A stretch of DNA of 38,105 nucleotides from Nitrospinota bacterium (lineage in GTDB: Bacteria > UBA8248): contig VXPH01000149.1 in assembly GCA_009839615.1 (NCBI GenBank), positions 1 through 38,105 on the forward strand. The letters are read 5' to 3'. Positions 14,807 through 38,105 of the stretch are shown here, one piece after another. How positions within the stretch are numbered: position 1 is the stretch's first letter; the number at the start of each line of letters is the position of its first letter. Under the pieces are notes generated by a model. The model searched no databases, had not been told where the DNA came from, and worked only from the letters and a program-made list of their open reading frames with translations. The translations under genes were made by a program, and so were the position numbers.

Positions 14807-17800
14807 ATGAGGGTGGACGGCGCGTCGGCTTCAGGGCAGGAAGATTCCTTTCGGCTCCGCTGCCTGTCGATAGACCTGGAGGTCAGCAGGAATGGTGTTA
14901 TCGACGCTTTGGGCGCGTTGCGCGCGGACACCGCCGAGAGCCTGACGCATTCCGGCGGCGGCATGACGACCGCTCTGGAGAAGCTCGACGATCTCGCCGA
15001 GGGCGCCTCATTCATTCTGGGCCACAACCTAATCGCCTTCGACCTTCCGCATCTCGCCGCTGCGAAACCCGATTTGCGTTTATTGAAGTTACCGGTAGTC
15101 GATACGCTGCGTCTGAGCCCGCTCGCCTTTCCCCGCAATCCCTATCATCGCCTGGTCAAGCACTATCAGGACGGCGGGCTCAGGCGCGGGCGAGTCAACG
15201 ACCCCGAACTCGACGCACGCCTCGCGCTGGAAGTCTTCGAGGATCAGTTGAAAGCGCTACGAGAGGTGCAGTCGGACCTGCTGGCGGCATGGCATTGGCT
15301 GACCACGCCGGAATATGAAGGCGTGGACCGCGCCCTGGACGATTTATTCACCGAGCTTCGCCGCTCGCGCCGCCCACCCGACGCCGAGGCCCGCGCGGCG
15401 ATAAACCGGCGGATCGAGGGCGTCGCCTGCGCGAGCTACGCGCGCGAGGTGCTGGCGGAGGCGGACGGGCTCGGCTGGGCGCTGGCCTACGCGCTGGCGT
15501 GGCTGTCGGTGGCGGGCGACAACTCGGTCATGCCGCCCTGGGTACGCCACCAGTTCCCCGAAGCGGGCGAGCTGGTGCGCCGTCTCAGGGACACTGCCTG
15601 CACCGCTCCCGACTGCGGCTGGTGCCGGGAGCGGCACGATGCCGGGAAGGAGCTGACTCGCTGGTTCGGTTTCGATGATTTCCGGCCGGAACCAACGGAC
15701 GACGAGGGGCGTCCCATGCAGCGGTCCATCGTCGAGGCGGCGATGAGCGGGGAGCACGTGCTCGGCATTCTGCCCACAGGAACGGGCAAGTCGCTCTGCT
15801 ACCAGATTCCGGCGCTCTCGCGCTACGACAAGACCGGCGCGATCACGGTGGTCATCTCGCCCCTGGTCGCGCTAATGGCCGATCAGGTCTCAGGACTGCA
15901 AGCGAGCGGGATCGGCTGCTGCGTGACCATCAACGGGCTGCTGTCGATGCCCGAGCGGGCGGACGCGCTCGACCGGGTGCGGCTGGGAGACGCGGGTATC
16001 CTTCTCATTGCGCCGGAGCAGCTACGTTCCCGTTCCCTCCGCCGCGCGCTCGCTCAGCGCGAGATCGGCGCCTGGGTGGTGGACGAGGCCCATTGCCTCT
16101 CGCAATGGGGGCACGATTTCCGGCCCGATTACCGCTACGTGGGCCGCTTCATCCGGGAGAAGGCGGGCGGCGGGCCGATACCTCCCGTGATGTGCCTGAC
16201 CGCGACCGCCAAACCCGAAGTCGTCGGGGACGTCGTGGGCCATTTCCGGGAGAAGGTCGGGGTCGAGTTGAGGGTGTTCGACGGCGGCGCCGGCAGGCCC
16301 AACCTGACGTTCGAGGTCATCCCGACTTCTGGGGGCGAGAAGTTCTCCCACGTCCACGAGGTACTGGAGTCGTACCTGCCGTCCGATGCGCCCGGCGGCG
16401 CCATCGTCTACTGCGCGACGCGGCAGGGCAGCGAGGATATCGCCGAATACCTGAAACAGAAGGGCCTGGCGGCGGAGCATTTCCACGCGGGCCTCTTGCC
16501 GGAGACCAAGAAGGACGTGCAGCGTCGCTTCATCGGCGGCGAGTTGCACGCCATCGCGGCGACCAACGCCTTCGGCATGGGGATCGACAAGCCGGACGTG
16601 CGCCTGGTCATCCACGCCGATATCCCGGGGTCGCTGGAGAACTATTTTCAGGAGGCGGGCCGCGCCGGACGTGACCGCGCATCCGCTCGGTGCGTGTTGC
16701 TCTATGTGGCGGACGACGTGGAGAACCGGTTCGGCATGTCGGCGCGCTCGCGGCTCACCAGGAGGGAGATACACGGTATCCTAAGGGCGCTACGCAACCT
16801 GAACAGGAAGAAGCGCCTCGGCGGCGAGGTGGTGGCCACGGCGGGGGAGATACTGGGGGAGGACGAGGAGAACGCGTTCGAGCGGGATTCGGCCACCGAC
16901 GATACGCGGGTGCGCACCGCCGTCGCCTGGCTGGAGGAATCGGAACTGTTGACGCGCGAGGAGAACGTGGTGCATGTGTTCCCCGCCTCGCTCCGGGTGC
17001 GTTCGGTCGAAGAGGCCAGGGAACGGCTCGCAGGTGCGAATATTACCGACGCCTATCGCAACCAGTTGCTGCGCATCGCCGAAGCGCTTATCGACGCTCC
17101 TGCAGACGATGGCGTCACCACTGACGAACTGATGGGGGTCTCGGGGCTGAGCCCCGATGGTGTGCGGGGCGCATTGCACGATCTCGCGCGGCTGGATATT
17201 TCCAGCAACGACACCGCGCTCACCGCTTTCGTCCACGCCAGCGTGGAGCGCAGCTCCCAAAAACGCCTGGCGGAAGCGGTGGAGCTTGAGACCGCCCTGA
17301 TCGCGCACATGCGCGAGGCGGCGCCGGACATGGGCAAGGGAGAGTCGTCGTCGCTGCACCTGCGCATCGCCGCTCAGAAACTGAGAGATGAGGGCCTGCC
17401 CGAACCGCTGCCGGAACGCCTGTTGCGCATCGTCCGCGGCATCGCAAATGACGGACGCGGCGAGGACGGTGGTACGGGCAGCCTGGCAGTGCGCAAGCGC
17501 GACGCGGAGACCGTTCGGGTGACGCTGCAACGTGAATGGGAAAAGCTGAAGGAGACCGCCGAACTCCGGCGCGCGGCGGCCTCACGCCTGATAGAGCATT
17601 TCCTCGACTGCCTGCCGCCCGGAAGCCGTGGCGTCGATTTGCTGGCGGAAACCACGCTCGGCAAATTGTTGGCGGCAATCGAGTCCGACCTGATTCTGAA
17701 GAGCAAGGTGCGCCATCCCGACAAGCTCCTGGACCGCGCCCTGCTGTGGCTGCACGAGATGGAGGTCATCCGCCTGAACAAGGGCCTCGCCGTGTTCCGC

Positions 17801-19966
17801 CCCGCCATGACCATCCGCCTGGATCAGCGACAGCGGCGCGGCTTCGCGAAGACGGAATTCGAACCCCTCGCGCTTCATTACAAGGGACAGGTACTGCAAG
17901 TCCACGTGATGGCGGAATACGCCGAACGCGGCCTCGACGCCATGCGTGAGGCGCTGCGCCTCGCGATGGACTACTTCACGCTGAAGGAGGAGGCGTTTCT
18001 CGCGCGCTGGCTACCGGGCCGGGACCGGGATATCGGACGCGAGACCACCCCCGCGTCATGGCGGGCCATCGTCGAGAGCCTGAAAAATCCCGATCAGCAG
18101 CGCATTGTTGCCGACGACCGGGAGCAGACGAACGTGCTGGTGCTCGCCGGCCCCGGCTCGGGCAAGACCCGGGTGCTGGTGCATCGCATCGCCTGGCTGA
18201 TCCGCGTGAGGCGGGAGGACGCCCGCAGCATCCTGGCCCTGGCCTACAACCGCCACGCGGCGGTCGACATCCGCCGCCGCCTCAAGGATTTGATCGGCGA
18301 CGACGCTCGCGGCGTGACCGTTCTCACCTGCCACGCCCTGGCGATGCGTCTGGCCGGGTTCAGTTTCGAGAGCCGGTCGGAGCGTCCGGATGATAAGGCG
18401 TTCCGCGAGGTGCTCCGCCGCGCCGGGAAATTGCTGCGCGGAGAGGGCCTGCCGCTCGAGGAGGCGGACGAGCAGCGCGAGCGTTTGCTCGCGGGCTTCC
18501 GCTGGATACTGGTGGATGAATACCAGGATGTCGGCAAAGAAGAGTATGAGTTGATCTCGGCCCTGGCCGGGCGGACGCTCGATGACGAGGACGGCAAGCT
18601 CACCCTGTTCGCGGTCGGCGACGACGACCAGAACATCTACGCCTTCAAGGGTGCCTCGGTGGAGTTCATCCGGCGTTTCGAGGCGGACTACGGCCCGAAC
18701 TCTGCCTATCTCACCGCGAACTACCGCTCCACGGCCCACGTCGTGGCGGCGTCCAACGCGGTGATAGAGAAAGCCCGCGAACGAATGAAGGCCGACCAGC
18801 CCATCCGCGTCAACCGGGCGCGTGAAAAGGACCCGCCGGGCGGCGCGTGGGAGAAGCTGGATCCTGTCTCACGGGGGCGTGTGCAGATCGTGCCGGCGGG
18901 CCGCGACGCGGTTCATCAGGCGCGCGCCGTCATGGCGGAACTGCAACGCCTCGCGTCTCGGACGCCCGATTGGGACTGGTCGCGTTGCGCGGTGATTGCG
19001 CGCGAATGGAAGTATCTGGTTCCCGTGCGAGCCTTCTGCGAAGCGAAGGGCGTTCCGGCTCAGATGGGGGACGAGGAAATCCCGGGTTTCTGGCATCTGC
19101 GGGAGACCCGCGCGTTCCGCGAATGGCTGCGCGCGCGAAAGCCCCGCGTCGTCGACGGCGCGGCTCTGCGTGATTGGATGGAATCGCGGTCGGTCGACCC
19201 CTGGAACGATCTGCTGCGCCAGGCCGTCGAGGAACACGCGCTGGAAACCGGCGGATCGGAGACGCCGGTGGCGCACTTCATCGAATGGCTGGCGGAGTGG
19301 GGACGGGAGGTGCGCCGTCGCCAGCGTGGCCTCCTGTTGTCGACCGCCCACGGCGCGAAGGGTCTGGAATTCGACCACGTGGCCGTGCTGGACGGCGGGT
19401 GGGACCGTATCGGACGCGGCGAAGACCCGGCCGCGCCGCGCCGCCTCTACTACGTGGCCATGACGCGCGCCCGGCAGACCCTGACGCTCGCATGCTTCGA
19501 TGAGCCCCACGGGTTCGCGGCCGAATTGGCAGGCCATCCCTCCGTGATACGCCGCGATCCGGTCGATCTCCCGCTTGGCCCAGCGTCGCTCGGGTATCAT
19601 TACGTTCGGCCCGCTCTCCGGGACGTGGACCTGGGTTTCGCCGGACGCCGGAGCGCCCGTGATCCGTTGCACCGCGCCATCGCCGGGCTGTCGCCGGGCG
19701 ATCCGCTCGGGACGCGCATCACGACTCAGGGCCGCTGGGAATTGCTGGACGGGAGCGACGGGGTAGTGGGACGCCTCGCCGGGAGTTTCGAGCCTCCGCC
19801 GGGGACCCGATGCCGCTCCGCCTCGGTGTGGGCCGTCACCGGGTGGAGCCGCAAGGCTTCCAATCCCGAGTATCACGACTCCATCAAGTGCGACGCTTGG
19901 GAAGTGATCGTGCCGGAACTCGTATTCGAGCCTGTTCGTGAGAAGCGATTGCATCCGGATAAGTAA
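14807..19966 (+). CDS. Fusion of DnaQ-like exonuclease fold, RecQ-type helicase and UvrD-type helicase
   Basis: A 1719-residue multidomain protein. Residues 15-150 look like a DEDD exonuclease: SIDLE (D23, E25), GHNLIAFD (D79) and NDPELDA (D136), although the usual catalytic His before the last Asp is N131. A small C-x4-C-x2-C knuckle (CTAPDCGWC) follows. A RecQ-like SF2 core has Walker A PTGTGKS (K328), DEAH (426-429), a TATAK block and QEAGRAGRD (615-623), then winged-helix-like segments. A complete SF1 UvrD core follows: GPGSGKT (K1120), DEYQD (1237-1241), [13 protein letters not shown] (from 1271), [10 protein letters not shown] (from 1513) and YYVAMTRA (from 1548). Both motors look intact. 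ATG 14807 is the first start after an in-frame stop at 14750. RecQ-UvrD fusions occur scattered in bacteria; repair or anti-phage DNA processing is plausible but inferred. Confidence 0.88.
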
Positions 19967-29403: not shown

Positions 29404-30114
<711 letters not shown>

Positions 30115-30115
30115 G

Positions 30116-30871
30116 TCACTCCGCCTTTCCGAGGTAGATTTCCTGCACCCTGGGGTCGTTGCGGATGTCGTCGCTGGGTCCCTCGGCGAGCACCTCGCCG
30201 TAGTGCAGAACGCTGATGTGGGAGACGACCTCGAATATGACGTCGAGGTCGTGCTCGATGAGGAGAATGGCGATTTCGGGGTCGAGCGATTTCAGGAAAT
30301 CGGCCATTTCGTGGGATTCGCCCGTGGCCAGCCCCGCGGAGGGTTCGTCCAAAAGCAATACCTTCGGGTCGCTCGCCAGGGCGAGGACGATCTCGAGCTG
30401 GCGCTGCTCCCCGTGGGAGAGGTTGCGCACCTCCTGATCCCGCAAGTGCCAGAAGTTCACGTCGCTCAGCAGCTTTTCGGCTTTTTCGTAGACGTCCTTG
30501 TACTTGTGGAGGGGTTTGAGCATCACCATCTTCATCTTCCGCAGGCCCTGCACGGCGAGGAGGACATTCTCGAGCACGGTGAGCTTGGGAAACAGGCTGG
30601 TGATCTGGAAGGTGCGCGCCATCCCCAGAGCCACGCGCTTGTGGGTGGGCCATCCCGAGACGTCCTGCCCGAAAAGGCGGATGCGGCCCGAGGTGAGCGG
30701 AAGCACGCCCGTTATCAGGTGAAACAGCGTGGTTTTCCCGGCTCCGTTCGGCCCCAGGATTCCCCGCCGCTCGCCGAGGTTCAGGCGCAGGTTCACGTCC
30801 TCGACGGCGTGAAGGCCACCGAAGTGCTTCGTGACGCTATCCAGTTCCAGCCCTGGTTGTTCGTTCGACAA
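30116..30871 (-). CDS. livG: Branched-chain amino acid-type ABC transporter ATPase LivG
   Basis: The 251-residue protein has Walker A GPNGAGKTT, signature LSHGEQRQLEIVLAL, Walker B VLLLDEPSAGLA and the LivG-type insert and ending (DVSGWPTHKRVALGMARTFQI; RVQEIYLGKAE). It pairs with LivF as the nucleotide-binding dimer of the importer. The TTG start has GAGGAGC about 9 nt upstream. It follows livJ by 80 nt on the minus strand and precedes livF by 1 nt. Confidence 0.94.
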   Translation of the reverse strand: MSNEQPGLELDSVTKHFGGLHAVEDVNLRLNLGERRGILGPNGAGKTTLFHLITGVLPLTSGRIRLFGQDVSGWPTHKRVALGMARTFQITSLFPKLTVLENVLLAVQGLRKMKMVMLKPLHKYKDVYEKAEKLLSDVNFWHLRDQEVRNLSHGEQRQLEIVLALASDPKVLLLDEPSAGLATGESHEMADFLKSLDPEIAILLIEHDLDVIFEVVSHISVLHYGEVLAEGPSDDIRNDPRVQEIYLGKAE

Positions 30872-30951
30872 AACTCGATTGCTCCTCGGAAAAGACCACC
30901 GGCGCGAATCCGCCGCCCGGACCGGGGCCCGGACGGCGGAAGAATTCGCCC

Positions 30952-32205
30952 CTACTTACAATGCGGGCACGGCGGGAACTTCTTGCTGTACACGGGGTCT
31001 TTCAGGAAATCCTTATCCGACCACTTCCAGAACTGCCCCACGGCGGGGTAGGTCTTGATCACCATGTTCCAGAGTGAGTTCGGCTTCACGCCCAGACCCA
31101 GTCGATCGCCCTTCACGCGGGTCACCCGGCGGATGTAGCTGTTCTGCACGGGATTTCCGTATGCGTCCAGATACACCGGCCCTCTGATGGCGTCGATGCG
31201 GATCTCCTTGAACGCCTTGAGGAACGCATCTTTGTTGTCCGGCTTGTAGCCGATCTTCTTGAGCGCGAGGTCCACCCACTGGCCCGTGGTGTAGCAGGTC
31301 TCCGAGTAGTAGGAGGCCATCTTCCCGTAGCGCTGCTGGTATTCCTTGACGAACGCCTTGTTCTTGTCCGTCGTGAGAGCGGCGCTGTACTGCGCAGCCG
31401 TCACGTAGCCGAGCGTCTCATCGCCCATGCTGGGCAGGATGAACTCATCCGCGCTCGTCACGCCGCCGAGCATCGGCATCTTGAAGCCCGCGGCGCGGAA
31501 CTGCTTCGGGAAGGCCAGGGACATGGGGCCGACCATCAGGGTGAAGATGGCGTCTGCGTCCTTGGGTATCTGCGGCAGATAGGGACCGAAGTCCTTCGTG
31601 CCGAGCTTCGCCCAGATCTTCTTCACGATCTTGCCGCCGCGCGCCTCGAAGGCCTTGTGGAAGCCGCCCACGGTCTCGTAGCCGAACGCGTAGTCCGCGC
31701 CGATGGTGACCACGTTGCGGTAGCCCTGGTCGTAGGCCCACTCGCCGAGCGGATGGCTGTTCTGGCTGCTCGTGAAGCCGCTGCGCAGGAAGTACTTGAA
31801 GAGCTTGCGCTGCGTGAGGTCGTCCGCCGCCGGCACGGGCGAGATGTAGGGCGTCTTGAAGCGGTTGGCCACCGGCGCGAGCGCATATCCGGTGCTGGCG
31901 AGCAGGCCGCCGATGAACATGTGCACCTTGTCGCGCTTGATGAGCTTGAGCGCCTTGCGCACGTTCACGGCCGGCTTGCCGGTCGAGTCCTCGAGGATGA
32001 ACTTGACGTCCAGGGGGCCCATCTTGCTCTTCGTGTGCGCCATGTACATCTTGAAGCCGTTGCTCATGTCCTTGCCGATCTGGGCGAAGATGCCCGTCAT
32101 CGGCGCGATGAACCCGATGCGCACCTCGGCCGCCTGCGCGCTGCCGAAACCGGCGGAGAAGACGAGGCCGAGCACTGCGATGATGGTGATGAATTTCCGT
32201 TTCAT
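30952..32205 (-). CDS. livJ: Periplasmic substrate-binding protein of the LIV-type importer
   Basis: The start is ATG 32205, backed by GGGAGGA 7 nt upstream; an open frame reaching 32262 would add 19 residues without purpose. The 417-residue product begins with a signal peptide (MKRKFITIIAVLGLVFSAGFGSAQA, cut near residue 25) and continues AEVRIGFIAPMTGIFAQIGKDM, the typical opening of type-1 periplasmic binding proteins of the Leu/Ile/Val family. It delivers the ligand to LivHM. An unusual feature is the extreme C-terminus, FPPCPHCK, a CxxC next to the end, which could be a redox or metal site or a disulfide. The symbol is by family; the ligand is unknown. Confidence 0.9.
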   Translation of the reverse strand: MKRKFITIIAVLGLVFSAGFGSAQAAEVRIGFIAPMTGIFAQIGKDMSNGFKMYMAHTKSKMGPLDVKFILEDSTGKPAVNVRKALKLIKRDKVHMFIGGLLASTGYALAPVANRFKTPYISPVPAADDLTQRKLFKYFLRSGFTSSQNSHPLGEWAYDQGYRNVVTIGADYAFGYETVGGFHKAFEARGGKIVKKIWAKLGTKDFGPYLPQIPKDADAIFTLMVGPMSLAFPKQFRAAGFKMPMLGGVTSADEFILPSMGDETLGYVTAAQYSAALTTDKNKAFVKEYQQRYGKMASYYSETCYTTGQWVDLALKKIGYKPDNKDAFLKAFKEIRIDAIRGPVYLDAYGNPVQNSYIRRVTRVKGDRLGLGVKPNSLWNMVIKTYPAVGQFWKWSDKDFLKDPVYSKKFPPCPHCK

Positions 32206-32258
32206 TTTTTTTCCTCCCTCGTTTCGTCTCGACGAAGAGACGGGGTGCCGCGCCGTCC

Positions 32259-33284
32259 TCAACCCTCCGGGGTTTCAGACGTGGCGGCGGGTTTTCGAAA
32301 CTTGCCGAACAATCCGAGAATTCCCTCGACGCCGTAGAGGCGTCCCAGCATGATGGTGATGATGTAGATGGCGCCCAGAATCAGCGGCCAGCGCTCCACG
32401 TAGATGCTGATGAACTGCTGCAGAGACCTGATGATGGCCGAGCCGATCACCGGGCCGATCAGCGTGGCGGGTCCGCCAAGGGCGACCATGAAAAGCGCCT
32501 CGGCCGAAGTGATGAGTTCGATGTCCGGCGGGCTCACGAAGAGGTTGAACAGCGTCCACATCACGCCTGAAACGCCGCTGAAAACGCCCGCGATGATGAA
32601 AGCGAGGTATTTGTGGAGCCAGATGTTGTAGCCGAGCATTTGCATACGCTCCTCGCGCTCCCGGATGCCGACCAGCGTTTTTCCGAAAGGGCTTCTCACG
32701 AACAGGTACATCAGACCCAGACAGATCAGGAACACAGCGAGCGTGAAATAGAAGAAAGGCATTTCCGATTCCAGCGATATGCCGAACAGGGACGGCCTCC
32801 CCAGCACGTTGATGCCGTTGTCCCCTTCCGTCACGGCGCTCCAGCGGTACGCCAGACCCCAGATGACCATGGCGAGGGAGAGGGTGATCATCAGGAAATA
32901 CACGCCCACCGCGCGTATGGCCAGAAAACCGAAGAACGCGGCGAAGGCCGTGGCGACGACCAGCGCGAAGATGAAGATGTAGAAAAGACCCAGTCCCAGC
33001 GAGTCCGCCCACTGGAAGGCGGCGAAGGTCCACGTCCAGTCTTCTTTCGTCATGATGATGGCCGTGGTGTAGGAGGCGACGCCGAAATAGGCGGCGTGTC
33101 CCAGTGAAGCCAGTCCGGTGAACCCCAGCAGAAGGTCCAGACTCATGGCCAGGATGCCGAACACGAGTATTTCCGTCACCAGGCTCTGCATGAAAAGGTC
33201 CAAAAACGGCGTGACGGCGGCGAGAGCGACGAAGACGCCCAGCACGATGAATATCCTTCTTTTCTCCGCCAGGTTTTCAATCAA
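32259..33284 (-). CDS. livM: Branched-chain amino acid-type ABC transporter permease LivM
   Basis: The 341-residue membrane protein has about nine to ten helices and the LivM marks LDLLLGFTGLASLGHAAYFGVASYT and GVSGVMWTLFNLFVSPPD...SAEALFMVALGGPATLIGPVIGSAI, the latter containing the coupling-helix region. A TTG start at 33284 lies one codon after the livH stop, in the same frame, with GGAAAGGG about 8 nt before it; readthrough of that single TAA would make a LivH-LivM fusion. It forms the membrane channel with LivH. Confidence 0.93.
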   Translation of the reverse strand: MIENLAEKRRIFIVLGVFVALAAVTPFLDLFMQSLVTEILVFGILAMSLDLLLGFTGLASLGHAAYFGVASYTTAIIMTKEDWTWTFAAFQWADSLGLGLFYIFIFALVVATAFAAFFGFLAIRAVGVYFLMITLSLAMVIWGLAYRWSAVTEGDNGINVLGRPSLFGISLESEMPFFYFTLAVFLICLGLMYLFVRSPFGKTLVGIREREERMQMLGYNIWLHKYLAFIIAGVFSGVSGVMWTLFNLFVSPPDIELITSAEALFMVALGGPATLIGPVIGSAIIRSLQQFISIYVERWPLILGAIYIITIMLGRLYGVEGILGLFGKFRKPAATSETPEG

Positions 33285-33287
33285 TGC

Positions 33288-34385
33288 TTAACCCTTTCCG
33301 AACAGGCCGGTCGGCTTGATCGCCAGAATGATGGCCATGGGCGCGAACAGCGCAAAGTAGGAGAGTTCGGGAAACAGCGCGGTCCCGAAGTTCTCGATGA
33401 AGCCGACCACGATGCTGCCGAGTACGGCGCCGCCCAGGCTGCCGAGGCCCCCGATGATCACCACGGCGAACGCGTAGGGGAGTATCTCGAAGTCGAGCCC
33501 GGGGTAGACGCCGAAGAACGCGCCGCCCACCACGCCGCCCGTGGCGGCCAGCAGCGCCCCGATGGCGAATATCGCCATTTGCACGACGTTGGTGTTGATG
33601 CCGATGCCGCGCGCCATCTCGGGGTCGTCCACCGCCGCGCGCATGATGGCGCCGAGGCGGGTGCGCTCTATTCCCAGGAACAGGGCGGCGGCCACCACGA
33701 CGGCGATGACGATCATGAAGGCGCGGTACTGGGGCAGCGAGAGGCCCCAGACGACGGCGCTGAAGTTCAGGGGCCAGGGCTGTTTGAGCATGAAGTTGTC
33801 CCCGCCCCAGGTATAGAGCGAGCCGTCTTGCAGGATAAACGCGAAACCGATGGTCACAAGCACCTGGGAGAGCGTGTCCTGCCCGAGGCGGCGCAGGAAG
33901 AAGCGCTCGATCAACATCCCGCACAGCGCCGCGATGGCGAGGGCGACGACGATGGCGGCCATCATGCCCAGGAAATTGATCCGGTCGACGGGTTTTACGG
34001 GCACGTGCGGGAAGAAGAGTTCGAAGAATCTGAAGCCCCATATCAGGCTGCACAAGATTTCCATAACGATGTAGGCGAGCAGGAGCGCGAGCGCCGCGTG
34101 CCTGGGAGCGACGTATAACGTGAGCCCCCGCCATGCGAAATAGAGCGCTGTCCACGAGACGAGCTGGACGATCCGGGGCATCAGGCTCAGGGAGCCGAAA
34201 ATGATGTTGTAGAATTCCAGGGCGAGGTAGCCGGCGAAGAGAAAAAAGGCGGCGTGCGCGAGGTTCACGATGCGCATTACGCCGAAGATGAGCGAGAGCC
34301 CGCTCGCCAGGAGAAACAGAATCGCGGCGTAGGAGAGCGAGTTATAGCTGAGAACGAGGATGTTCGTGAAACTCAGAGTGGTCAT
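33288..34385 (-). CDS. livH: Branched-chain amino acid-type ABC transporter permease LivH
   Basis: I place the start at ATG 34385 (MTTLSFTNILVLSYNSLSYAAILFLLASGLSLIFGVMRIVNLAHAAF split over the first helices), which is the conserved LivH opening; a frame reaching 34457 adds a charged leader of 24 residues. The 365-residue protein is longer than usual LivH (about 300), because of an extra hydrophobic stretch around residues 60-120 with a transmembrane pair. Later family marks are VTIGFAFILQDGSLYTWGG, NTNVVQMAIFAIGALLAATGGVVGGAFFG and GGLGSLGGAVLGSIVVGFIEN. It heads the minus-strand operon. Confidence 0.92.
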   Translation of the reverse strand: MTTLSFTNILVLSYNSLSYAAILFLLASGLSLIFGVMRIVNLAHAAFFLFAGYLALEFYNIIFGSLSLMPRIVQLVSWTALYFAWRGLTLYVAPRHAALALLLAYIVMEILCSLIWGFRFFELFFPHVPVKPVDRINFLGMMAAIVVALAIAALCGMLIERFFLRRLGQDTLSQVLVTIGFAFILQDGSLYTWGGDNFMLKQPWPLNFSAVVWGLSLPQYRAFMIVIAVVVAAALFLGIERTRLGAIMRAAVDDPEMARGIGINTNVVQMAIFAIGALLAATGGVVGGAFFGVYPGLDFEILPYAFAVVIIGGLGSLGGAVLGSIVVGFIENFGTALFPELSYFALFAPMAIILAIKPTGLFGKG

Positions 34386-34680
34386 GCGAGTCTCTCTCTG
34401 GTCCGGAGACGGTGCGCCTGAAAGCAAGTCCCCCGATGCCCGTCCCCGGGCCGTCAAATCCCATGAGAACCGAGATGATGTATGGTTCCGAGTGCCTCAT
34501 TATGTCCACGATCCAGGGTGTGGTCAAGCTGACGGAAAGCGGGGTTTTCCTCGCTCCCTCCTTTATCGCTGGCGAAAACCGGCGCGGAACGATAGAGTTT
34601 GCAGTGTCAAACTTATCCATTTTCAGATTGTGGGCGATACGCGTTTCGTTTCTGTCAGGGTAATGTTTCGTTCCGGTTAA
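34386..34680. promoter_or_regulatory. Divergent control region between livH and the CodA-like gene
   Basis: These 295 nt separate two divergent operons and hold no gene. AGTTTG (34596-34601) and CAAACT (34608-34613) form a 6-6-6 dyad that could bind a dimeric regulator acting on both directions. On the minus strand the dyad overlaps TTGACA (complement of 34605-34610), but no -10 hexamer sits at the right distance. GGAACGA (34586-34592) and TCGTTCC (34669-34675) form a second, distant inverted pair. Confidence 0.4.
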
Positions 34681-35940
34681 ATGATCATGAGCGCAGAGAT
34701 GACGGACGAAAGAATTTTCAGGAACGCCAGAATCAATTCGGACGGCCCATTGGTGGACTTGCACGTCGCCGGGGGCCGGTTTTCGGGAATATCGCCGGGG
34801 ATCGAGAACGGGGCCGGCTGCGAGGAGGTCGATTTGGGCGGCCGCGCCGTGTTGCCCGCGTTCGTGGAGAGCCATATTCACCTGGACAAGGCGTTTCTGG
34901 AAGAGCGCGAGCCCAACCTTTCCGGCACGCTCGAAGACGCCATCTCCATCACGCTGGCCCTCAAGAAAACCGTCACGAAACAAGACGTCATGGAGCGCGC
35001 CGAGCGCGCGCTGCGCATGTGCATCCGGCACGGCGCCACCTGGTTTCGCGCCCAGGTGGAGGTCGACCCCATCGTCGGACTTCTGGGAGTGGAAGTCGCC
35101 CTGGCGCTCAAGGAGAAATACGCAGGCCTCGCGGATTTTCAACTCGTCATTTTCCCCCAGGAAGGCATCGAGCAGCAGCCGGGAACGGAGGATTTGATGC
35201 GCGAGGCCATGCGGATGGGCGGGGACCTCGTGGGCGGAATCCCGTATAACGACCTGGACGCCGAACGCCATCTGGACATCGTTTTCGGGATGGCCGAGGC
35301 GTTCGGCTGCGGCCTGGATTTTCATCTCGATTTCGCGGATGACCCCCGGGTGAGGAATATCGAATCGGTGGCCGCACGCACGATGGCCGCCGGTTTGGGG
35401 GGCCGGGTGGCCGTCGGTCATTTAACCTCCCTGGGCGCGATGCCGCCGGATGATGCCGCGCTTGTTATCGAGAAGATTCTCGAGGCGGGCATCTCCGTCC
35501 TGCCCTTGCCGGCGACGGATCTGTTCCTGGGCGGGAGAGGGGACGCGCCGCCTCGCTTCAGGAGTCTCGCCCCCGTCAAGGACCTCCTGAGCGCAGGGGT
35601 CAACGTCGCCATCTCATCGAACAACATCCGCAACGCCTTCACGCCCTCGGGACGCGGCGATTTGCTCGAACTCGGCCTTCTCCTCGCCCATGCGCTCCAC
35701 ATGAGCGGCGCATCGGATAGAAGTCTGGTTCCCGAACTTTTCACGACGAACGGGGCGAAGGCATTGGGGGTGGGGGAGGGCTATGGTTTGCGGCCCGGCT
35801 GCGCGGCTGATTTCGTGGTTCTCGATTCGCTGAATTTCGACGACATTCTCATCGATCAGCCCGAGAAGCGATTCGTGGTGAAAGGCGGGCGCATTATCGT
35901 GGAGAACGTCTCGGAGACGTCCTGGCGGGAGGCGGAATAG
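34681..35940 (+). CDS. CodA-fold amidohydrolase (cytosine-deaminase-like) with altered active site
   Basis: The 419-residue protein follows E. coli cytosine deaminase over its length: ESHIHLDKAF (H65, H67), FPQEGI (Q160), DFHLDF (H215), VGHLTSL (H247) and a C-terminal beta-sandwich return (GCAADFVVLDS). Two key positions differ. The catalytic Glu expected three residues after H215 is F218, and the metal-binding Asp expected near 313 is N314 in SSNNIRNAF. Deamination by the standard route is therefore doubtful; hydrolysis of another ring or amide, or a different metal geometry, is more likely. ATG 34681 has no good ribosome-binding site; ATG 34699 (MTDERIF) is a possible start. It abuts the DUF1116 gene (TAGATG). 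Confidence 0.8.
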   Translation: MIMSAEMTDERIFRNARINSDGPLVDLHVAGGRFSGISPGIENGAGCEEVDLGGRAVLPAFVESHIHLDKAFLEEREPNLSGTLEDAISITLALKKTVTKQDVMERAERALRMCIRHGATWFRAQVEVDPIVGLLGVEVALALKEKYAGLADFQLVIFPQEGIEQQPGTEDLMREAMRMGGDLVGGIPYNDLDAERHLDIVFGMAEAFGCGLDFHLDFADDPRVRNIESVAARTMAAGLGGRVAVGHLTSLGAMPPDDAALVIEKILEAGISVLPLPATDLFLGGRGDAPPRFRSLAPVKDLLSAGVNVAISSNNIRNAFTPSGRGDLLELGLLLAHALHMSGASDRSLVPELFTTNGAKALGVGEGYGLRPGCAADFVVLDSLNFDDILIDQPEKRFVVKGGRIIVENVSETSWREAE

Positions 35941-37191
35941 ATGGGCGTGATCACCGACGCGAACACAGAGGCGCTCACCCGCATCACCGAGGCCGAACCC
36001 GTCCTGGTGGACGTGCGCCCGGCGGGTGAGGTGATACCGGGCCTGGAGGAGGGCGTTCTCCTTCATGCCGGACCCCCGATCGAGTGGGAGCGGATGTGCG
36101 GTCCCCTGCGCGGGGCGGTTGCGGGAGCGGCCGTCCTGGAAGGCTGGGCGGATGACTTGGCCTCGGGCGAGGCGCTCGCCGCCTCGGGCGGCGTCGCTTT
36201 CCACCCGAATCATCATTTCGACGCCGTCGGCCCCATGACGGGAATCACCACGCGCTCGATGCCGGTGATGGTCGTGGAGAACAGAAAATTCGGGAACCGG
36301 GCGTATTGCACCCTGAACGAGGGCCTGGGGAAGGTGATGCGCTTCGGCGGAAACGACGAGGAGGTGCTGAACAGGCTGCGCTGGCTGGCGGAGCGCCTGG
36401 CGCCCGCGCTCTCGGACGCTCTCCTGGCCACGGGGGGGCTGCCGCTCAAGAGCATCATCGCGCGGGGGCTTTCGATGGGAGACGAGATGCACCAGCGCAA
36501 CGTGGCCTGCACGAGCCTCTTCGTGCGCGAGGCGGCGCCCGCGCTGGCGCGCGTCGTGCGGGAGAGCAAGGCGCTGGAAGAGGTGCTGTCGTTCATCGGC
36601 GGAAACGATCAGTTCTTCCTGAACGTCGCGATGGCTGTGGGCAAGGCGGTGATGGACCCGGTGCGCAATATCGAGGCCTCGAGCATCGTCACGGCGATGT
36701 GCCGCAACGGAACGGACTTTGGCATCCGGGTGAGCGCGACGGGGGATGCGTGGTTCACGGCGCCGGTGGAGATGCCCGAGGGGCTGTATTTCCCGGGCTT
36801 CGGCGAGGAGGACGCCAATCCGGACATGGGCGATTCCACGATCATCGAGACGATGGGGCTGGGAGGATTCGCCATGGCCGCGGCACCCGCCGTTGTCGGG
36901 TTCGTGGGCGCGGGAAGCGCTGCGGATGCGCTGAATTATTCGCGCGCCATGTACGAGATCACCCGGGGCCGAAACCCTGAGTGGACGATTCCCGCTCTCG
37001 ATTTTCAGGGGGTTCCCTCAGGGATAGACATTACCAGGGTGGTGAAGCTGGGCGTCACGCCCGTCATCAACACAGGCATCGCGCACAAGGAACCCGGCGT
37101 CGGCCAGGTGGGCGCGGGCGTCGTTCGCGCGCCGCTCGCCTGTTTCGAGCAGGCCCTCGAAGCCTATGGCGCGAAGATGGGCGTGGTCTGA
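35941..37191 (+). CDS. DUF1116 family protein (YlbE/AllG-like)
   Basis: The 416-residue product contains HPNHHFDAVGPMTGITTRSMPV, ENRKFGNRAYCTLNEGLGKVMRFG and MGDEMHQRNVACTSLF, the hallmark blocks of DUF1116. In E. coli the family member YlbE (AllG) acts with FdrA (AllF) and the DUF2877 protein YlbF (AllH) as oxamate carbamoyltransferase in allantoin breakdown. Neither partner is in this window; instead the gene is fused in operon to the CodA-like amidohydrolase, starting right after its stop with GGGAGGCGG upstream. This suggests a carbamoyl- or ureido-group reaction on a product of that enzyme, but that is inference. Confidence 0.82.
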   Translation: MGVITDANTEALTRITEAEPVLVDVRPAGEVIPGLEEGVLLHAGPPIEWERMCGPLRGAVAGAAVLEGWADDLASGEALAASGGVAFHPNHHFDAVGPMTGITTRSMPVMVVENRKFGNRAYCTLNEGLGKVMRFGGNDEEVLNRLRWLAERLAPALSDALLATGGLPLKSIIARGLSMGDEMHQRNVACTSLFVREAAPALARVVRESKALEEVLSFIGGNDQFFLNVAMAVGKAVMDPVRNIEASSIVTAMCRNGTDFGIRVSATGDAWFTAPVEMPEGLYFPGFGEEDANPDMGDSTIIETMGLGGFAMAAAPAVVGFVGAGSAADALNYSRAMYEITRGRNPEWTIPALDFQGVPSGIDITRVVKLGVTPVINTGIAHKEPGVGQVGAGVVRAPLACFEQALEAYGAKMGVV

Positions 37192-37201
37192 ACCTTTTCA
37201 G
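37188..37201. terminator. Mini-hairpin overlapping two convergent stop codons
   Basis: CTGAA (37188-37192), loop CCTT, TTCAG (37197-37201). It contains the TGA of the DUF1116 gene (37189-37191) and the TGA of the minus-strand ThDP enzyme (complement of 37198-37200). Only 5 bp, so termination is uncertain. Confidence 0.3.
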
Positions 37202-38105
37202 TTCTCCAGGCGTTCGTATTCGATGTGGGCGTCGATGAGATAGGGCTTGCCGCCCGCCAATCCCTTCTGCATAGCCTCTCTGAGTTCGGCTGGCGATTTC
37301 GCCTGTACGGCGCTCACGCCCATGGACCCGGCCATCTGGATGAAGTCGAGTTCGGGCTCCTTGAAATCCATGGCGACGAATTGCCGGTGCTCCTGCGTTT
37401 TGCCGTCGAGCCTTAAGACCCGCTCTTTGAGGATCCGGTAGCTCTTGTTGTTCAGAATCACGAACACGGCGTCCAGATCATATTTCGCGGCACTCCATAG
37501 CGCCTGGATGGCGTACATGGCGGAGCCGTCTCCCGAGAGGCAGACCACGGGCGTATCGGGCAGGGCCTTCTTGACGCCCAGCGCGCTGGGCAGGCCCAGG
37601 CCGATGCCGCCTCCCTTCATGCCGAAGATGGAATCTATCTTGCCTGCGACCGCGCTCTTGAGGCCTCCGCCGTGCCCCATGGTGAGGGACTCATCCACCA
37701 GCGCCGTCCCTTGAGGCAGGGTCTCTCCGAATGCGGCCTGGAAGGACTCTTTCGTCAGGAGGCCGTCGTCCTCGCCCGCTTTGGGGGCGATCTCTCTTCT
37801 TGAGGCCGCCAGTTCCTTCTCGATCCACGCGCGGCGTTCGCTTGCGTTTTGAAGGCCCGCTTCGCCCATTTTCTTTTCCACCGCCCCGGTGAGTTCGACG
37901 AGCGTTGTCTTGGGGTCTCCCAGCATGGCGACGTCGACGGGGAAGTTCTTGCCGATCTCCCAGGGGTCCAGGTCCAGATGAATGATTCGCGCGCCGCGCG
38001 GCGCCAGCGGGGCTGGCGGCGGGAAGGAGAAGGTGTAGGTATGCGGGCCGATGATGAAAACCACGTCCGCGTCTTGGGAGTGAAACAGACGGTGTGGTGT
38101 AAACA
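37198..38105 (-). CDS. Thiamine diphosphate-dependent enzyme (acetolactate synthase/decarboxylase type), 5'-truncated
   Basis: The frame runs open through the right edge of the window (residues LFHSQDADVV precede the GTG at 38064), so only the C-terminal ~300 residues are present. They cover the end of the central domain (ARIIHLDLDPWEIGKNFPVDVAMLGD) and the pyrophosphate-binding domain with the ThDP/Mg motif GDGSAMY...NNKSYRILK. This pattern is shared by acetolactate synthase, benzoylformate decarboxylase, oxalyl-CoA decarboxylase and glyoxylate carboligase. The N-terminal catalytic Glu is outside the window, so the reaction cannot be named. It converges on the DUF1116 gene with 6 nt between stops. 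Confidence 0.88.
   Translation of the reverse strand, partial: FTPHRLFHSQDADVVFIIGPHTYTFSFPPPAPLAPRGARIIHLDLDPWEIGKNFPVDVAMLGDPKTTLVELTGAVEKKMGEAGLQNASERRAWIEKELAASRREIAPKAGEDDGLLTKESFQAAFGETLPQGTALVDESLTMGHGGGLKSAVAGKIDSIFGMKGGGIGLGLPSALGVKKALPDTPVVCLSGDGSAMYAIQALWSAAKYDLDAVFVILNNKSYRILKERVLRLDGKTQEHRQFVAMDFKEPELDFIQMAGSMGVSAVQAKSPAELREAMQKGLAGGKPYLIDAHIEYERLEN

Follow-up and report, generated by a model that had tools for sequence, protein, structure and literature searches.

A conserved CodA-fold amidohydrolase clade with four carboxylates replaced, joined to an oxamic transcarbamylase family gene in a Nitrospinota genome

The amidohydrolase of the gene pair described here belongs to a conserved, uncharacterized clade of CodA-fold enzymes attached to oxamic transcarbamylase (OXTCase) systems, and the finding newly connects the pair with oxalurate (ureide) catabolism instead of setting it outside that pathway. 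The pair lies near one end of the window, by which we mean the whole stretch of 38,105 nucleotides that was analyzed (G000:C223:1-38105), itself part of a 53-kb contig in MAG G000, whose relatives are labeled Nitrospinota, Nitrospinae, or Tectomicrobia. The pair and its neighbors are as follows.

29404-30114, minus strand: LivF-type ATPase of the divergent ABC importer
30116-30871, minus strand: LivG-type ATPase of the importer
30952-32262, minus strand: periplasmic binding protein of the importer (Peripla_BP_6)
32259-33284, minus strand: LivM-type permease of the importer
33288-34457, minus strand: LivH-type permease of the importer, which is kept beside the pair across the family
34681-35940, plus strand: CodA/AtzC-type amidohydrolase of the F/N clade (F218, N314, N315, N318; metal His ligands kept)
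35927-35932, plus strand: GGGAGG, a Shine-Dalgarno-like motif within the 3' end of the amidohydrolase gene, read from the sequence
35941-37191, plus strand: AllG (DUF1116), of the oxamic transcarbamylase subunit family (PF06545, 3clq, invariant positions)
37198-38103, minus strand: ThDP-dependent enzyme, convergent, 616 aa across the window edge

Both reading frames of the pair are intact, encoding 419 aa for the amidohydrolase and 416 aa for AllG, and the TAG stop of the first (35938-35940) is followed without a gap by the ATG of the second at position 35941, giving the junction TAGATG. The GGGAGG motif sits 8 bases upstream of the AllG start, and given this motif the two genes are likely to be translationally coupled. 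The original prediction had described an amidohydrolase-DUF1116 pair with this junction, a liv importer divergent from it (29404-34457), and a ThDP enzyme convergent with it, and all of this layout was confirmed. The two genes adjoin on the same strand in all 12 family genomes that have both on one contig. Purifying selection acts on both genes, with dN/dS values of 0.15 to 0.22 for the amidohydrolase and 0.09 to 0.16 for AllG.

The amidohydrolase shows full-length similarity to cytosine deaminases and to AtzC (phmmer E-values to 1k6w and 4r7w of about 1e-50 to 1e-57), and its AlphaFold model, with a mean pLDDT of 92, was placed by Foldseek nearest to the 5-methylcytosine deaminase of Klebsiella pneumoniae (4r7w; TM 0.91). 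With CodA and 4r7w it shares, besides the fold, about 30% identity, the metal-binding histidines, the strand-4 Gln, and the strand-6 His. Alignment with Escherichia coli CodA confirmed the retained residues read earlier, H65, H67, Q160, H215, and H247, of which the histidines match the metal ligands (H61, H63, H214) and H246 of CodA. It differs from CodA in four Asp/Glu replacements, in belonging to a separate clade, and in its gene context. The replacements, in the published CodA numbering, which is one lower than that of the annotated gene, are Glu217 by F218, Asp313 by N314, Asp314 by N315, and Asp317 by N318, the first two of which had been part of the original prediction and hold across the clade. 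AtzC (N-isopropylammelide amidohydrolase) belongs to the same subfamily and has in common with the window enzyme the HxHxDK motif with K70, but it keeps the strand-8 Asp (SDNIRD, against SNNIRN in the window enzyme); alignment with 2qt3 and 4cqb places AtzC D303 at the Asn. The protein falls below the cut-off of every NCBIfam model, the best score being 289 bits against 408 for PRK05985, and among the cytosine deaminase models it reaches 255 bits against a cut-off of 438, with other such models lower.

CodA relies on the strand-8 Asp and the Glu for water activation and substrate protonation, and loss of the strand-8 Asp together with the strand-5 Glu is expected to abolish CodA-type deamination. 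Every one of the 118 F/N clade members found has N314, and 117 have F218, the remaining one having Leu; the Asp is kept by all 21 relatives outside the F/N group, save the one Leu member. The F/N members form a single clade (SH-aLRT 96), separate from the clade holding E. coli CodA, and they range over Nitrospinota, Rokubacteria, Methylomirabilota, Thermoplasmata, Bacillota, Coriobacteriales, and Alphaproteobacteria. Since the residue changes are clade-wide and dN/dS is low, they have been kept by selection and are not decay. Sequencing error at F218 and N314 was ruled out by the identical residues in independent genomes. The clade-wide replacement of four CodA carboxylates supports the view that the F/N enzyme is not a normal cytosine deaminase, and it suggests an anionic substrate.

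The second gene of the pair is a clear member of its family. It matches PF06545 with an E-value of 1e-93 (313 bits, against a gathering score of 27) and 3clq, a solved protein without an assigned function, with an E-value of 1e-125, and it retains 94 of the 95 positions that are invariant among 10 diverse AllG proteins. In the tree it groups with the AllG of Hyphomicrobiales (SH-aLRT 99). In E. coli, AllFGH constitutes the oxamic transcarbamylase, and single deletion of allF, allG, or allH blocked oxamate formation; OXTCase activity in extracts of an "S." species is stated in the same paper (PMC11326118). The three genes form one operon in E. coli, whereas those of G000 are dispersed over contigs, and the E. 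coli all cluster is without an amidohydrolase, whereas the window AllG is coupled to one.

FdrA (AllF) and DUF2877 (AllH) had been described as missing, and they are indeed absent from the contig of the window, but their true absence is ruled out, as both are encoded in G000. FdrA is present in two copies, at C142:5943-7502, where it adjoins a second AllG, and at C243:3747-5210, and AllH in one, at C279:1600-1917; AllH was found in 16 of the 18 family genomes. The original prediction had named co-expressed FdrA and DUF2877 genes elsewhere in the genome as evidence against its own reading, and as regards presence such genes do exist. AllF, AllG, and AllH lie on separate contigs in G000 and are also apart in well-assembled relatives. 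In three family genomes (G010, G011, and G012) the window-type AllG is the sole AllG, and each has a single FdrA, a single AllH, and carbamate kinase, which argues that the dispersed AllG, FdrA, and AllH work together. Carbamate kinase, full or nearly full, is present in 13 of the 18 family genomes and was not found in MAG G000; in the sister genome G003 its gene is roughly 10 kb upstream of the first FdrA, at a place that in G000 would fall past the end of contig C142. The FdrA of G010 and G012 groups with that of Hyphomicrobiales. The C243 copy forms a lineage apart, and simple orthology between it and the FdrA of Hyphomicrobiales finds no support in the tree.

Three neighborhoods of these genes are described here for the record. 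The second AllG-FdrA module of G000 (locus L024 from C142, 2848-10196) includes a BMP-type ABC importer, a cyclase-family gene, and a DHDPS-family gene. The C243 FdrA (L187, 191-10807) is without AllG and sits amid genes for an FAD-binding dehydrogenase, a UbiX/PPC-DC-type flavoprotein, an amidase, and a TRAP transporter. The AllH of G004 (locus L180 from C22, 7204-12560) is beside an AAA ATPase, a 657-aa protein without a Pfam match, and a ketopantoate-reductase-like gene.

In unrelated lineages, namely Bacillota, Thermoplasmata, and Hyphomicrobiales, the F/N clade is linked to FdrA, AllG, AllH, and carbamate kinase. Hyphomicrobiales MAGs (loci L115, L116, and L120) have amidohydrolase, AllG, FdrA, ArcC, and AllH in series, with a liv-type importer upstream of the cluster in L116. 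The Thermoplasmata cluster holds ArcC, the F/N amidohydrolase, a DUF1097 membrane protein, FdrA, AllG, AllH, and an isochorismatase-type hydrolase. Among 51 Bacillota loci, FdrA is within 10 kb of the F/N enzyme in 25, carbamate kinase likewise in 25, and an unclassified membrane transporter is paired with the enzyme in 42; a PucR regulator is often part of these clusters, and AllD, AllB, AllC, or allantoin permease sometimes is. In many Enterococcus loci the enzyme and the transporter stand together as a separate module. Where the F/N enzyme has no AllG nearby, AllG is encoded elsewhere in 25 of 34 genomes, and across 106 Enterococcaceae genomes the two co-occur (37/42 versus 24/64; P = 2.4e-7, uncorrected for kinship). 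The enzyme is found without AllG in Paenibacillus, Terrilactibacillus, several alphaproteobacteria, and five Enterococcaceae, so its reaction is not strictly dependent on AllFGH.

A close parallel is the cluster of Enterococcus faecalis (L041), in the order FdrA::AllG, AllH, carbamate kinase, AllD, transporter, F/N amidohydrolase. This amidohydrolase is 46% identical to that of the window, has the same F/N residues, and shares one locus with AllG and its partners; the locus differs in its FdrA-AllG fusion and in having the unclassified membrane transporter in place of the liv importer. That protein (L041, 12612-13967, and orthologues) has 451 aa and no Pfam or NCBIfam match, and it is probably a transporter of the substrate or product of the F/N enzyme. 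On Pleomorphomonas and Rhizobium plasmids (L043, 6439-9251; L129, 7642-10233) the F/N gene comes directly after an annotated 8-oxoguanine deaminase gene, with AllG not nearby, an arrangement that perhaps represents a related route for another purine fragment.

A ring-acting amidohydrolase, AllFGH, and carbamate kinase together make up a recurring plan that uses unrelated amidohydrolases. Locus L193 of G003 (from C27, 6375-19417) holds the family's second AllG-FdrA module together with carbamate kinase and a ring-opening amidohydrolase of the AtzD/TrzD type (PF09663, 9e-148), and it has the BMP-type ABC importer and cyclase-family gene in common with L024. The Citrobacter plasmid pF1917-1 (L044, 3284-14852) carries a ring-opening amidohydrolase, AllH, FdrA, AllG, and carbamate kinase between IS26 copies. 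As in the F/N loci, AllG, FdrA, and carbamate kinase stand in these modules next to an amidohydrolase, here a ring-acting one, but the fold of that amidohydrolase is unrelated and their AllG and FdrA are of another clade. The recurrence of this plan is the main reason to prefer ring opening for the F/N enzyme. AllG homologues were seen in 193 plasmid records.

The F/N enzyme is probably an uncharacterized step of ureide breakdown. The specific scheme that we favor, though with confidence somewhat short of even, is that it opens a parabanate-like ring and feeds an oxalurate-like substrate to AllG and the dispersed FdrA and AllH, with carbamoyl phosphate as the result. A small cyclic imide or ureide would enter the cell, perhaps through the divergent ABC importer; the F/N metal enzyme, with its CodA fold and acid-poor pocket, would open the ring, with oxalurate or a closely related N-carbamoyl acid as product; AllG, with FdrA and AllH from elsewhere in the genome, would phosphorolyse this product to carbamoyl phosphate and oxamate; and carbamate kinase would then yield ATP, NH3, and CO2 from the carbamoyl phosphate. 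We infer the reaction, its substrate, the import step, and the subunit partnership from the observed linkage, partner genes, residues, conservation, and intact AllG. Oxalurate results when the ring of parabanate, its cyclic form, is opened, and parabanate to oxalurate would be the most economical guess for the reaction. By the titles of older papers as cited elsewhere, parabanic acid reportedly induces OXTCase in a Streptococcus, and an oxalurate pathway is said to exist in S. faecalis. A natural candidate for that pathway is the E. faecalis locus in which the F/N gene accompanies FdrA::AllG, AllH, and carbamate kinase. Our text search of the literature found no paper joining cytosine deaminase, oxamate, and amidohydrolase, and none joining ring-opening amidohydrolase and carbamate kinase.

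The main difficulty of the ureide scheme is the loss of the strand-8 Asp, since with this residue and the Glu gone it is questionable whether the ring could be hydrolyzed by the usual mechanism. The dispersal of FdrA, AllH, and AllG in this genus, the separate lineage of the C243 FdrA, the failure to find carbamate kinase in MAG G000, and the lineages that have the enzyme without AllG also count against the scheme. Of the earlier proposal, an uncharacterized route for a ureido compound or N-heterocycle rather than pyrimidine salvage, what stands is that the enzyme is uncharacterized, appears not to be a normal cytosine deaminase, and has a ureido link through AllG, while the premise that the partners are missing does not. 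The exclusion of allantoin breakdown was too strong, as Bacillota orthologues cluster with AllFGH, carbamate kinase, and AllD, and sometimes with AllB, AllC, or an allantoin permease. The starting compound in the Nitrospinota host may still not be allantoin; the allantoinase AllB model has a cut-off of 357.85 bits, and the best scores were 318.7 bits in G000 and 332.8 in the family. A role for the F/N enzyme in place of the ureidoglycine aminohydrolase AllE is disfavored, since one cluster with AllB and AllC has a class-V aminotransferase that might fill that role.

An alternative that we consider unlikely is that the F/N enzyme acts downstream of AllFGH, hydrolyzing oxamate or another small amide anion (oxamate giving oxalate and ammonia), with the Bacillota transporter moving the anions. 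Oxamate is the product of AllFGH (PMC11326118), the acid-poor pocket would suit an anion, and the enzyme-transporter module of Enterococcus is in keeping with such a role. On the other hand, the CodA/AtzC pocket is built for rings. Moreover, the full cluster of L115 is followed by a gamma-glutamyltransferase-type gene whose relatives include 5hft, which we take to be the oxamate amidohydrolase HpxW. As a marker of oxamate hydrolysis this type of gene was not diagnostic, homologues being present in all family genomes.

The flanking importer bears both on the ureide scheme and on the reading, implied by the original prediction and in our estimate also improbable, that the enzyme and AllG serve some other N-heterocycle or ring carboxylate, with AllG active without FdrA and AllH. 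The nearest solved relatives of the binding protein are 4ey3, 4zpj, 4evs, and 4evq; we take 4ey3, 4evs, and 4evq to be aromatic-acid binders, with urea binders further off, and the importer therefore fits the ureide scheme poorly. This resemblance to proteins of the 4ey3/4evs type, the isolation of the pair on its contig, and the 8-oxoguanine deaminase genes adjoining some alphaproteobacterial relatives instead all favor another substrate. Against it, G000 has both FdrA and AllH, all three subunits are needed in E. coli, and the window AllG keeps its invariant positions and clades with AllG genes adjacent to FdrA. The ThDP gene is retained in only part of the family, which makes it a weak candidate for a pathway member, and the enzyme probably belongs to a separate acyl-CoA-type operon. 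Elsewhere in the window (14807-19966, plus strand), a 1719-aa reading frame fuses a DEAD-box helicase (residues 302-623) to a UvrD-type helicase (residues 1094-1563).

Rather improbable, too, is that the F/N protein is no hydrolase at all and works with the transcarbamylase as a binding, regulatory, or scaffolding subunit, or as a lyase or isomerase. Replacement of both CodA catalytic carboxylates across the clade and the direct coupling of the gene to AllG would agree with this, but every His metal ligand is kept, which would be needless in a pure scaffold, and the F/N protein stands without AllG in many loci and in some genomes. The reading of the pair as a relic, with the amidohydrolase a deaminase in decay, as lost catalytic carboxylates, dispersed partner genes, and in-frame stops in one family genome (G008) might suggest, is for practical purposes ruled out by N314 kept across phyla, dN/dS of 0.09 to 0.22, and adjacency kept across genera.

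For decades OXTCase was an orphan activity, and names for its genes came only in 2024; a second enzyme, widespread and itself uncharacterized, is now tied to it, with Enterococcus as a tractable organism in which to test it. The F/N gene is a candidate for the origin of oxalurate in bacteria without the whole allantoin route. A more far-reaching proposal, which we hold doubtful, is that the F/N clade is a new functional class of amidohydrolase working without the strand-8 Asp, for example an unrecognized hydrolase of parabanate (a cyclic imide), and that with AllFGH it forms an energy-yielding route for oxidized purine fragments in Firmicutes, archaea, and uncultured Nitrospinota. If the enzyme is catalytic without that Asp, it would also depart from the mechanism that is standard for a very large superfamily of enzymes.
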